Source of the DNA: a virus
IMG/VR virus record: IMGVR_UViG_3300025769_000192
Location: 1-49,725 of that record
Strand: one strand, 5' to 3'
DNA: 49,725 nucleotides
The position numbers and the translations under genes are program-made. How positions within the stretch are numbered: the stretch's first letter is position 1; each line of letters starts with the position of its first letter. Under the pieces are notes generated by a model, which saw only the letters and a program-made list of their open reading frames with translations, ran no database searches and had not been told where the DNA came from. Positions 18,324-21,840 of the stretch are shown here, in pieces.

Positions 18324-20246
18324 TTAGTAACTCATTGAAAGACCATCGACAGCAGATGGTGTATCGAAGTATGCAGAAGATTGACTGATATTACTTACGT
18401 TAGATGTTGGTGCATTCACTACGTTGACAGCTTGTTGACTTTGTTGTTCTGCTCGTGCTTCTTCTCTTGCTATCGTTTGTGTACCTAATTCTTGTGCAAT
18501 ATCGGTTCTCTTCGTCTCGGCTGGTCCAACTTGAATAGGAGCGGTTTCGGCTGGAGATGAGAAGAAGTCTCCAATCTTATCAAAGATAGATTTCTGTTTA
18601 TTTTCTAAAAACATTCTAACTTCATCTGGTGACGCACCATCATCAACCAATCTTCTCACTTGACCAAAGGTAACACCAGTAACCTTATATTCTTGCATAA
18701 TGTTGTTAAGTTCATTATCAGCATCTCTAGTTTGATATACAATGGTGCCTTCACCTGTTTCTGTGTCGAACCCACCACTCACCTTTTTCTGTCTTATTTT
18801 TGTTATTTCTTCACCAGAAGTTGCGTCAATAGACTCTTTTGTTACGAATGATGATTGGGCACCACGTGCATATTTCCCAGTCATTGCACCCTCAACAACG
18901 GTAATCCCCTCTTGACTTGTTCTTTCACGAGTATCAATACTACCATCACTTGATTGGGTCGATACGGTTTCAAAACTATCACTAGATTCGACGTTCGCAA
19001 CATTCGTATCAGGCATAAAGGGGTAGAAGGGTCCAAATCCAACTTTGCCGATAACAGGCACATCAAACTCTATACGGGGTACACCAATCTCAGCGAACAT
19101 ATTAGTGAGCATAGACTTTATCTTACTGAAATCAAATAATTCACTGAAGAATGTTGATATTTCATCACCGATACCTGATATTTTTTCTGAAACCTGATTC
19201 CACGCTTCGGTGAGTGGTGAGAAGAAATCACCGATACTTGTTAACGTTTCATCGAACCATGTTGATATAGCGTCGATGGTTTCATTAAACCACGCTGTGA
19301 TTCTATCTGGAATACCTGTAATCCAAGTTTCGAAGGTATCCATCAACTCAGCAAATCCTTCTTGGAAACTGAACGAATCTAGAAAACTTTCTATTTCAGT
19401 GAAACCAAGTGCTCCTGCAAGCCATGATACCATGTCTTTAATCAAATCTGCTGGCCACATGACGATTGCACTAATAACTTGTTCTATACCTCTAGAGATA
19501 CCTCTAAGAAATTTTTCGGCTAAATTATCATCTTCGTTTGCAGTGAAACCTTCTACAAATCCCATCACACCGTTGTAAATAGCATAAAGTGGTAAAAGTA
19601 TTCTTCCAAATACACGTAACAGGTTTTTACCTATTTTAATAATTGCTGGAAGCAACGTCTTTGTTACAAAAGTACCAATCCCTTTAAAAACTGCAATCAT
19701 TAAAGGAACGATACGTGCTACAGTTGTCATAACACCACTAATCACACCACCTACGCCCATTAAATCAGCAACATATTTTAAAAATCCTTTTTCTTCTAAT
19801 TCTTTTTGTGCATCTCCAACATCTTTAAGAAAATTTGAAGTGAACCCCTTGGAACCTTCTCTTTTCGCTTCAGCACCTTGAAGATTTTCTTTTTTCTTCT
19901 TTTGTTCTTCGTTTTCCGCCTGTTCACGGTTTAAAAGAAGTTGTTCCTCTTCGTTTTCTAAAGATTCTTGTTGTATAGTAATTGATTGAATATGATTCTG
20001 ATTGATTGAATCAAACATTTTAGAAATGTTTTTTGTGAAGTCTTTAATATCGTTAGAAATACGAGTTAACGTTTTATCCATTGACATGAAGATTGAACGA
20101 ATTTCGACTGTAGGGTCATCAGAAGAACCACCTCCACCCATCATCATTGCAGCATTTTGTGCTTGTAAGGAACGTGTAACTTCTACTAGGTTAGCAGTAG
20201 CTGGTAAAAGTTCGCCCGAGATTGTTTGTATGTCGTTATCCGCCAT
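18324..20246 (-). CDS. Tail tape-measure protein (gp29 functional equivalent)
   Basis: The 640-aa product has the features of a tape measure: a helical N-terminus with Met/Gly-rich AAMMMGGGG, a coiled-coil rich in Glu/Gln/Lys at about 95-150, a long hydrophobic stretch at about 155-240 (GVISGVMTTVARIVPLMIAVF and onward), then amphipathic helices with repeated WF motifs and a Ser/Thr/Gln-rich end. It would set tail length and pass into the host membrane. T4 gp29 is 590 aa. Directly upstream lie gp26 and its frameshift extension, which fits the chaperone/tape-measure order of other phages. Sequence identity to gp29 cannot be judged by eye. Confidence 0.7.
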   Translation of the reverse strand: MADNDIQTISGELLPATANLVEVTRSLQAQNAAMMMGGGGSSDDPTVEIRSIFMSMDKTLTRISNDIKDFTKNISKMFDSINQNHIQSITIQQESLENEEEQLLLNREQAENEEQKKKKENLQGAEAKREGSKGFTSNFLKDVGDAQKELEEKGFLKYVADLMGVGGVISGVMTTVARIVPLMIAVFKGIGTFVTKTLLPAIIKIGKNLLRVFGRILLPLYAIYNGVMGFVEGFTANEDDNLAEKFLRGISRGIEQVISAIVMWPADLIKDMVSWLAGALGFTEIESFLDSFSFQEGFAELMDTFETWITGIPDRITAWFNETIDAISTWFDETLTSIGDFFSPLTEAWNQVSEKISGIGDEISTFFSELFDFSKIKSMLTNMFAEIGVPRIEFDVPVIGKVGFGPFYPFMPDTNVANVESSDSFETVSTQSSDGSIDTRERTSQEGITVVEGAMTGKYARGAQSSFVTKESIDATSGEEITKIRQKKVSGGFDTETGEGTIVYQTRDADNELNNIMQEYKVTGVTFGQVRRLVDDGASPDEVRMFLENKQKSIFDKIGDFFSSPAETAPIQVGPAETKRTDIAQELGTQTIAREEARAEQQSQQAVNVVNAPTSNVSNISQSSAYFDTPSAVDGLSMSY

Positions 20247-20367
20247 TTCTTTGCCTGATTCGTTCGTTCTCTTCTTTAACGTGTTGAATTAACATCATGA
20301 CATAAATTTCCCTCTCCCAAGGCAACATCTCATTCAATTCTGTCAAAGAGTATTTATGATGTTGCAT
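20236..20367 (-). CDS. Small ORF before the tape measure (T-like chaperone segment)
   Basis: ATG 20367 would give 43 aa, ending at TAA 20236-20238. The segment TELNEMLPWEREIYVMMLIQHVKEENERI has the 'LPWERE.Y' and amphipathic helix that occur in the second half of tail chaperones. No Shine-Dalgarno sequence precedes the ATG, and a perfect hairpin (20368-20385) lies directly upstream of it. Free initiation therefore looks poor, and frameshift expression from gp26 is favoured. It overlaps the tape-measure ATG by 11 bases. Confidence 0.6.
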   Translation of the reverse strand: MQHHKYSLTELNEMLPWEREIYVMMLIQHVKEENERIRQRNGG

Positions 20368-21128
20368 CAACTGAAAATTCAGTTGGTAATGATTAACTAA
20401 GTTATCATGAGAGAGGCATATTAAAAAAAATTCTGCATACCCTCAATAATTCTATCGTTTTCCTCTTTACAGTCTATACATGTGAATTGTAAATGATATG
20501 TTGTTTTTGGCATGTCCTGTAAGAAAGCTGCAACCTTTGCAAATTGACCTGATGTCATTGACTCCAAAAACTCATCAACCGCCTCTTGTGGTTCATCGTC
20601 TAATGCGACCCGTTCTTCTGCTGTGCGAATGGCTTCCATACATTTTGAAATTAAGATGAATGCATTCTTGGACGAATCGTCAAGTTCCACCTGTCCTTCT
20701 GATAGATGTTTGTATGAAGGGTAACGCATCTCGACACTAATATCGTCATTCAGTTTAATAATATTATCAATCTTTTCAGGCATACTAACCTTCACCTGTT
20801 CAAGGTCAATTTCAACATCGTTTTGAATATCACAGTGCGAACATTTAACAGCCACCTTTGTTTTTTCACCAACAGATTTCGCACGAATTTGAGTAAACAT
20901 ATACTCAACATCGAATGTAGTAAGTTTATTGCGGTTGATAGAATCCTCGACACAAGACTCAATTGTGTCTAGTACCGCTCTTAGAGTTGATTTTTCATCT
21001 CCTGATTCGAATGCCATTAGAAGAATTTTTTCTTCCTTTACAAGATAGGGTCTAAATCTTACCGTCTTTTGAGTTGACGGAATTGTCAACTCATATTTTG
21101 GTGAGGAATTAAGTTTAGGTAATGCCAT
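20236..21128 (-). CDS. Predicted gp26 -1 frameshift product (tail-assembly chaperone, G/GT-like)
   Basis: The zero frame of gp26 ends AAT TTT TTT TAA (20421-20432). A -1 slip on T TTT TTT (20424-20430) enters a frame that stays open for 62 codons, starting TTA ATA TGC, through the small ORF at 20236-20367 to TAA 20236-20238, inside the start of the tape-measure gene. The product would be about 297 aa. Lambda G/GT and P2 E/E' use the same arrangement, with the extension binding the tape measure. Two hairpins follow the slip site (20389-20408 and 20368-20385). This is a prediction from reading the frames; it has not been observed. Confidence 0.68.
20351..20358 (-). promoter_or_regulatory. Weak late-promoter-like octamer for the tape measure
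   Basis: On the minus strand CATAAATA differs from the T4 late consensus by one base. It stands about 100 nt upstream of the tape-measure ATG. It also lies in the frameshift-extension codons, so coincidence is possible. Confidence 0.25.
20421..21128 (-). CDS. gp26: gp26-like baseplate hub / tail chaperone protein
   Basis: The 235-aa product starts MALPKLNSSPKYELTIPST and has YLVKEEKILLMAFESGDEK, then two zinc-like pairs, C96-SHC99 and C217-IDC220, features of the T4 gp26 family. gp26 is needed for baseplate hub assembly. The last codons AAT TTT TTT precede TAA and form the slip site. GGAG stands just upstream of the ATG. The next gene on this strand, the tape measure, fits a chaperone role. 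Confidence 0.75.
   Translation of the reverse strand: MALPKLNSSPKYELTIPSTQKTVRFRPYLVKEEKILLMAFESGDEKSTLRAVLDTIESCVEDSINRNKLTTFDVEYMFTQIRAKSVGEKTKVAVKCSHCDIQNDVEIDLEQVKVSMPEKIDNIIKLNDDISVEMRYPSYKHLSEGQVELDDSSKNAFILISKCMEAIRTAEERVALDDEPQEAVDEFLESMTSGQFAKVAAFLQDMPKTTYHLQFTCIDCKEENDRIIEGMQNFF
20424..20430 (-). promoter_or_regulatory. Programmed -1 frameshift slippery heptamer T TTT TTT
   Basis: On the minus strand eight T residues occupy 20423-20430 and the reading frame places the heptamer as T TTT TTT one codon before the TAA stop. Both codons can re-pair after a -1 slip. P2 uses a T-rich slippery heptamer of the same kind for E/E'. Confidence 0.7.
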
Positions 21129-21165: not shown

Positions 21166-21840
21166 TTAAGCACCGCCAGGAATCTGCGGCGGTTTACTGT
21201 TTTGCAACAATTCCTTCTGATGATTTCTTTCTAAAAAAGAAGATTCTCTATTTGACTTCCAGTTTTTATATACAAAGTCAACAGATATTTCTACTAACTG
21301 ATCCGGTTGATCATTATATGATGGACCAGTCATCGTTACTGGATATGCATCTTCCAGCAGACAAGCATAAACCACGTCGTAAGGTATATCGAAGTCTCGT
21401 GTACTACCAGATGACGTTGATGTTGGGTCAGTCGGTGAAGTTATGTTTGCTTGTAATTTGTCTATGGTTGTGGTTGGTTTTAATTGTTGAATATTAATAT
21501 TCCTAGTATAGTCATTGAAATAACCAATTTGGTATGTGGTATTATTAACAATTAAATTCATCCATTCTTCGAAAAAATATCTAACGTAAGGGTCGTTCAA
21601 AACCAAAAACGTCATAGTAACATTTGGTTTTTCATAACCGTATGCGACCGTTTGTTTGGAGATACCAATCAACCTTTCGTTCGTAAGAATCTGTCTACCA
21701 GGCATGTTTGTTGAACGACAGAGAAGGTCTATGTTTTTTGACTGTTCCTGAGCAGGTAAAATCACACGAAATAGATTTCCTGAAGCGACACCGCCACCCG
21801 AACCTACTACATTTTTTAACTCTTCTATACTATAGGCCAC
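21166..21840 (-). CDS. Tail-tube-fold baseplate initiator (gp54-like)
   Basis: The 224-aa product begins MAYSIEELKNVVGSGGGVASGNLFRVILPA, then CRSTNMPGRQ and GYEKPNVTMTFLVLNDPYVRYFFEEWM, the layout of phage tail-tube proteins (gp19, gp54 and gp48 share this fold). Its small size and place beside hub genes suggest the tube initiator gp54. T4 gp54 is longer (320 aa), so the symbol is left blank. Confidence 0.6.
   Translation of the reverse strand: MAYSIEELKNVVGSGGGVASGNLFRVILPAQEQSKNIDLLCRSTNMPGRQILTNERLIGISKQTVAYGYEKPNVTMTFLVLNDPYVRYFFEEWMNLIVNNTTYQIGYFNDYTRNINIQQLKPTTTIDKLQANITSPTDPTSTSSGSTRDFDIPYDVVYACLLEDAYPVTMTGPSYNDQPDQLVEISVDFVYKNWKSNRESSFLERNHQKELLQNSKPPQIPGGA

Follow-up and report, generated by a model that had tools for sequence, protein, structure and literature searches.

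A universal slip site and a covarying long-range RNA stem point to programmed −1 frameshifting in the tail assembly chaperone gene of a marine T4-like phage

Within the tail gene cluster of a viral genome from the IMG/VR collection (record IMGVR_UViG_3300025769_000192; the whole 49,725-nucleotide stretch is referred to here as the window), the minus-strand gene gp26 appears to encode TAC-N, the short form of the tail assembly chaperone, in a marine T4-like phage. At the heptamer T_TTT_TTT near the end of this gene, a minority of ribosomes would slip and so produce a 297-aa long form, a reading to which we give a probability of about 0.93 on comparative sequence evidence. The proposed mechanism is that these ribosomes move back one base, bypass the TAA stop and continue in the −1 frame, giving a long product (TAC-NC) that would end in a conserved LSHDSL...PWEREIY domain. 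Two elements probably promote the slip, a Shine-Dalgarno-like sequence lying about 9 nt upstream and a 9-bp stem that starts 7 nt downstream. The comparative evidence for programmed −1 frameshifting at this locus is very strong. What is observed is the site, the open and selected −1 frame and the covarying stem; the slippage, its efficiency, the stimulator function of both elements and the chaperone roles are inferred.

The gene for gp26 (20421..21128, minus strand; 235 aa) has its own Shine-Dalgarno sequence, matches PF12322 (E 2.3e-57; 194.6 bits against a cut-off of 24.5) and covers positions 5-232 of the phrog_150 profile. Upstream of it lies the tail tube gene (21166..21840, minus strand; phrog_45, E 4.3e-25), and the tape-measure gene (18324..20246, minus strand; 640 aa) was recognized by its matches to phrog_1272 (E 4.9e-7) and phrog_305 (E 8.4e-7; tail length tape measure). 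The −1 frame that follows the slip site comprises 62 codons and a stop (20236..20424, minus strand). Its product, TAC-C, called gp51 in other annotations, matches phrog_634 (E 1.8e-27), a profile labelled 'baseplate hub assembly catalyst' (gp51), and also positions 229-281 of phrog_150. The order of genes is thus tail tube, chaperone, extension and tape measure, with the tape-measure ATG (20246-20244) falling within the end of the −1 frame; a short gene with an overlapping extension directly upstream of the tape-measure gene is the arrangement of G/GT-type frameshifted chaperones. The earlier note on this DNA had described this junction correctly. The gene gp26 ends AAT TTT TTT TAA with a run of eight T (20430-20423), the in-phase heptamer (20430-20424) stands before the stop codon (20423-20421, directly 3'), and the −1 frame takes in a 43-codon ORF, stops at 20238-20236 and yields a fusion of 297 aa. 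In several relatives (L005, L165, L167, L168, L169 and L174) a further small ORF of about 80-150 codons, functionally unannotated, separates the extension from the likely tape measure; the window is without it.

Conservation of the slip site was assessed in 133 distinct related loci, drawn from two scans of viral contigs (one with the window protein as query, the other with its alignment) and four phage records. Every one of them carries exactly one in-frame T_TTT_TTN within the last 20 codons of gp26. The same motif occurs elsewhere in these genes only 13 times in 30,863 codons, and therefore its presence in 133/133 loci is not due to chance. Other Phe-Phe pairs in the same genes take the T_TTT_TTN form in only 4 of 36 cases. 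The last base of the heptamer is T in 79, C in 40, A in 10 and G in 5 (134 loci, counted before one merge), and the 0-frame stop follows directly in 89 loci and one codon later in 41. Furthermore, a third scan provided a second sample in which loci were picked by the C-terminal extension alone; it partly overlaps the first, with 41 loci new at 90% identity, and the slip site was found in all 80. No relative keeping both ORFs without a slippery site, which the earlier note had named as a counter-case, was found among the 133 and 80 partly overlapping marine loci, nor among eight further phages of other groups inspected one by one; two Ackermannviridae-type loci carry a shorter TTTTC variant.

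Some individual loci show how the site varies. The gp26 genes of Salmonella phage allotria (L171, about 1990-2004) and Vibrio phage K445 (L173, about 1955-1968) end ATT TTC ATT TAA and CTT TTC AAG TAA, respectively, and in both the −1 frame is open and holds a divergent extension with MPWH; their shorter TTTTC site may act by single-tRNA slippage. In Pelagibacter phage Mosig (L002, 2990-3034) the 0-frame runs nine codons beyond the heptamer before it stops, so that the short form would have a different C-terminal tail, and in another six or seven loci the 0-frame is longer by 3-9 codons.

Runs of T are also places where RNA polymerase could add a U, so that some mRNAs would be read into the extension with no ribosomal shift. 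Eight T are present in the window and in 61 of 124 relatives, as such transcriptional slippage would favour. It is nevertheless judged very unlikely, because 49 of the 124 have only six T, which is short for slippage by RNA polymerase. The T6 tract also persists, with C or G as the next base, in high-GC phages, among them those of Stenotrophomonas, Agrobacterium, Sinorhizobium and Rhizobium. The heptamer always stands in the phase of tandem codons, and the presence of an RNA stem 7 nt beyond it agrees with slippage by the ribosome. Programmed −1 frameshifting on U_UUU_UUN would involve tandem re-pairing of tRNA while the ribosome faces this stem. A point against the frameshift reading is that U_UUU_UUU shifts only moderately in E. 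coli (PMC5009743).

The −1 frame is open in 125 of 125 complete loci, and the extension encoded in it is a conserved, selected protein domain (dN/dS 0.25 and 0.22; phrog_634 match). The part that bears most directly on how it is expressed lies between the slip site and the ATG at 20367-20365 (minus strand), where the 43-codon ORF begins and where gp51 annotations place the start. Over this stretch the −1 frame has a dN/dS of 0.25, compared with 1.35 and 1.58 for the other two, so that by this measure the frame is under purifying selection before the annotated ATG is reached. The small ORF could in principle be a free-standing gp51 made from this ATG by re-initiation or internal initiation; most relatives have the Met of the LMQHH motif, and the majority of records list gp51 as a gene of its own with a start close to that Met. 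However, such a protein would not account for the selection upstream of its own start, and it leaves both the universal heptamer and the fusion gene of T4, described below, unexplained. A Shine-Dalgarno sequence precedes the extension ATG in 1 of 125 loci, as against 119 of 131 for the gp26 start, and in 15 of 125 there is no ATG at all ahead of the conserved motif. In 51 of 125, the −1 frame is devoid of ATG, GTG and TTG between the stop codon upstream of it and the 18th codon past the slip site. The window conforms to this pattern, with no Shine-Dalgarno sequence at the ATG and a 7-bp hairpin (20385-20368) directly before it, both as the earlier note had reported, and its expectation of poor free initiation is borne out by the protein-level conservation upstream of the ATG together with these counts. 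On selection, Shine-Dalgarno and start-codon counts, free initiation of gp51 was rejected as the main route and is left with a very small probability, though a minor free product alongside the fusion is possible.

Taken with the heptamer in 133/133 loci and the −1 frame open in 125/125, these comparisons support the frameshift that the earlier note predicted and indicate that ribosomes enter the extension at the slip site and not at the ATG, which is probably an internal Met codon. A tblastn search of phage genomes returned 806 records, and among the matches listed the similarity begins no more than a few residues from the slip site. This has consequences for annotation, as hundreds of cyanophage and pelagiphage genomes list the extension as a gene in its own right, 'gp51 baseplate hub assembly catalyst', often beginning at an internal Met codon. 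It was noted by Sullivan et al. (2010) that cyanophage gp51 is about 200 residues shorter than in other T4-like phages (PMC3037559); if cyanophage gp51 is read as part of a frameshifted gene, its missing part is gp26.

Phage T4 itself provides an informative comparison. T4 gp26 (208 aa) covers positions 14-235 of phrog_150 and T4 gp51 (249 aa) covers 13-280, and since the two cover the profile at matching positions, the short and long forms in T4 appear to be separate genes. The profile of the window family matches T4 gp26 over nearly its full length and ends at a shared FF (E 8.4e-15), while the extension profile matches the C-terminus of T4 gp51 only (E 1.4e-5, compared with 0.73 for gp26). 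By these profile comparisons T4 gp51 is a natural fusion of gp26 and the extension, and T4 gp26 is the short form. Genes 26 and 51 are separate and divergently oriented in T4 and use no frameshift, whereas the window phage has one gene and a slip. In work dated 2022, Vladimirov, Gautam and Davidson reportedly assigned the short and long chaperone forms of T4 to genes 26 and 51. The relation reproduced here by profile comparison agrees with that study as it is presented in papers that cite it (PMC12846349, PMC10885494).

The most informative RNA feature of the locus, which the earlier note had missed, is a long-range stem. It first appeared when 135 nt of the window sequence were folded by themselves (z −2.7), and it was then tested on relatives. 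Its 5' arm, CCUCUCUCA (20408..20416, minus strand), consists of the codons of Leu-Ser-His and begins 7 nt after the heptamer; its 3' arm, UGGGAGAGG (20311..20319, minus strand), consists of the codons of Trp-Glu-Arg. Nine base pairs form between 20416-20408 and 20319-20311 and close a loop of 88 nt. When the first T of the heptamer is numbered 0, positions 14-22 pair with 111-119. The 7-nt spacer lies inside the range of 5-9 nt for downstream stimulatory structures, and the stem is further supported by covariation. Pair 14-119 is CG in 55 loci and TA in 33, and pair 17-116 is CG in 52 and TA in 30. Both pairs join third codon positions on the two sides. Ordered by corrected mutual information, they take the top two places out of all position pairs, each with a value of 0.22 (standard deviation across pairs 0.017).

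Since the arms are the codons of the conserved LSH and WER motifs, the same bases would be selected as protein and as RNA. One explanation that needs to be weighed is that there is no RNA element at all and that the pairing follows from the protein motifs LSH and PWER together with codon bias. The protein code does fix several of the paired positions, and control stems slid along the alignment reach up to 67.0% paired cells, compared with 85.9% in the stem itself and 81.7 when shuffled. Against this, all nine pairs form in 46% of loci but in only 2.1% under a synonymous-codon null, and the duplex energy is −11.5 as opposed to −4.3 in synonymous draws. Codon choice is also displaced in the arms relative to elsewhere (CTC, for Leu, 48% vs 5%; AGG, for Arg, 48% vs 10%; GAG 53% vs 27%), a shift that accords with paired third positions. 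Double changes number 59, compared with 30.9 after shuffling, and none of 500 shuffles was as high. On the gp26 tree, each of the two wobble-wobble pairs switches between CG and TA at least 14 times. A by-product of the protein code is thus improbable, although somewhat less so than the alternatives to ribosomal slippage considered above. For each pair, independent contrasts on supported branches favoured the expected direction by about 4.5 to 0, a result that is consistent but not significant alone (median p 0.06 and 0.13). The stem was replicated in the second sample, where 8 or 9 pairs form in 35 of the 41 new loci.

Consensus-structure prediction gave mixed results. RNAalifold with RIBOSUM scoring returned the long-range stem and nothing else substantial, and a second prediction at default settings on an alignment of 100 sequences gave no structure and did not recover the stem, a result that counts against it. 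An inner stem of the window fold (GCAACAUC/GAUGUUGC) was not recovered in the family consensus. Local hairpins just 3' of the slip site were rejected as stimulators, since they scored no better than shuffled sequences (z 0.2 to −1.7) and were absent from that consensus, and no known Rfam element was found at the locus. Upstream of the slip site, the Shine-Dalgarno-like GAGGG (20440..20444, minus strand) has an anti-SD energy of −6.1 in the window; the family mean is −6.3, compared with −5.2 (sd 0.1) in synonymous draws, and the sequence probably helps to promote the slip.

Divergent relatives such as P-SSM2 lack the stem or have only a weak form of it, which marks it as a feature of a lineage, and since other T4-like groups have the same slip site without the stem, it would be a lineage-specific device. 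In the cyanophages P-SSM2 (L003) and S-PM2 (L172), T_TTT_TTC is retained, but the LSH codons and a strong long-range stem are not. On the evidence of pairing and covariation, this lineage probably uses the 9-bp stem as its frameshift stimulator. No published report of it was found in a search that did not take in the text of Vladimirov et al. (2022), and PMC12846349 and PMC10885494, which cite that study, do not mention it. Subject to checking against the content of Vladimirov et al. (2022), the covarying stem is a new element. We consider it reasonably likely, at a lower level of confidence than the frameshift itself, that marine T4-like phages carry a previously unreported, lineage-specific stimulator of this form, a covarying 9-bp stem with LSH and WER codons as its arms and an 88-nt loop. 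It offers a precise, testable model for how abundant ocean phages could set the proportion of the short and long forms, for which T4, with two genes in place of the slip, is a natural comparison.

The general frameshift scheme for T4-like phages is already published. Vladimirov, Gautam and Davidson (2022; Virology 566:9-15) identified the tail assembly chaperones of T4-like phages, as cited in PMC12846349 and PMC10885494. In several T4-like groups, the study reportedly found that −1 frameshifting joins a gp26-type TAC-N to a C-terminal part of gp51 type. The genes are the same here, and the window phage is a further marine member. The suggestion in the earlier note that the lambda G/GT scheme extends to T4-like phages thus holds for this locus but is not new. 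The chaperone of Pseudomonas phage Adele and of the Vandenendeviridae and Andersonviridae likewise combines a conserved poly-T slip motif with a −1 frame that is open yet appears in annotations as a gene of its own or not at all, but the motif is GTTTTT and the phage families are others, unlike the window phage (PMC12846349). In lambda, gpG forms a coat on the tape measure and gpGT recruits the tube subunits (PMC5009743); by analogy, gp26 may coat the tape-measure protein and the 297-aa form may bring in tail-tube subunits. The slip sequences of lambda gpG/gpGT and P2 E/E' differ from the T_TTT_TTT of the window phage. That of lambda is GGGAAAG.

An AlphaFold model of gp26 has a pLDDT of 87, and its Foldseek match to the HK97 chaperone gp13 (2ob9) is weak (probability 0.57, E 1.7); a sequence search for solved structures found none. 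Two nearly invariant CxxC pairs, at gp26 residues 96/99 and 217/220, suggest a metal-binding ribbon.
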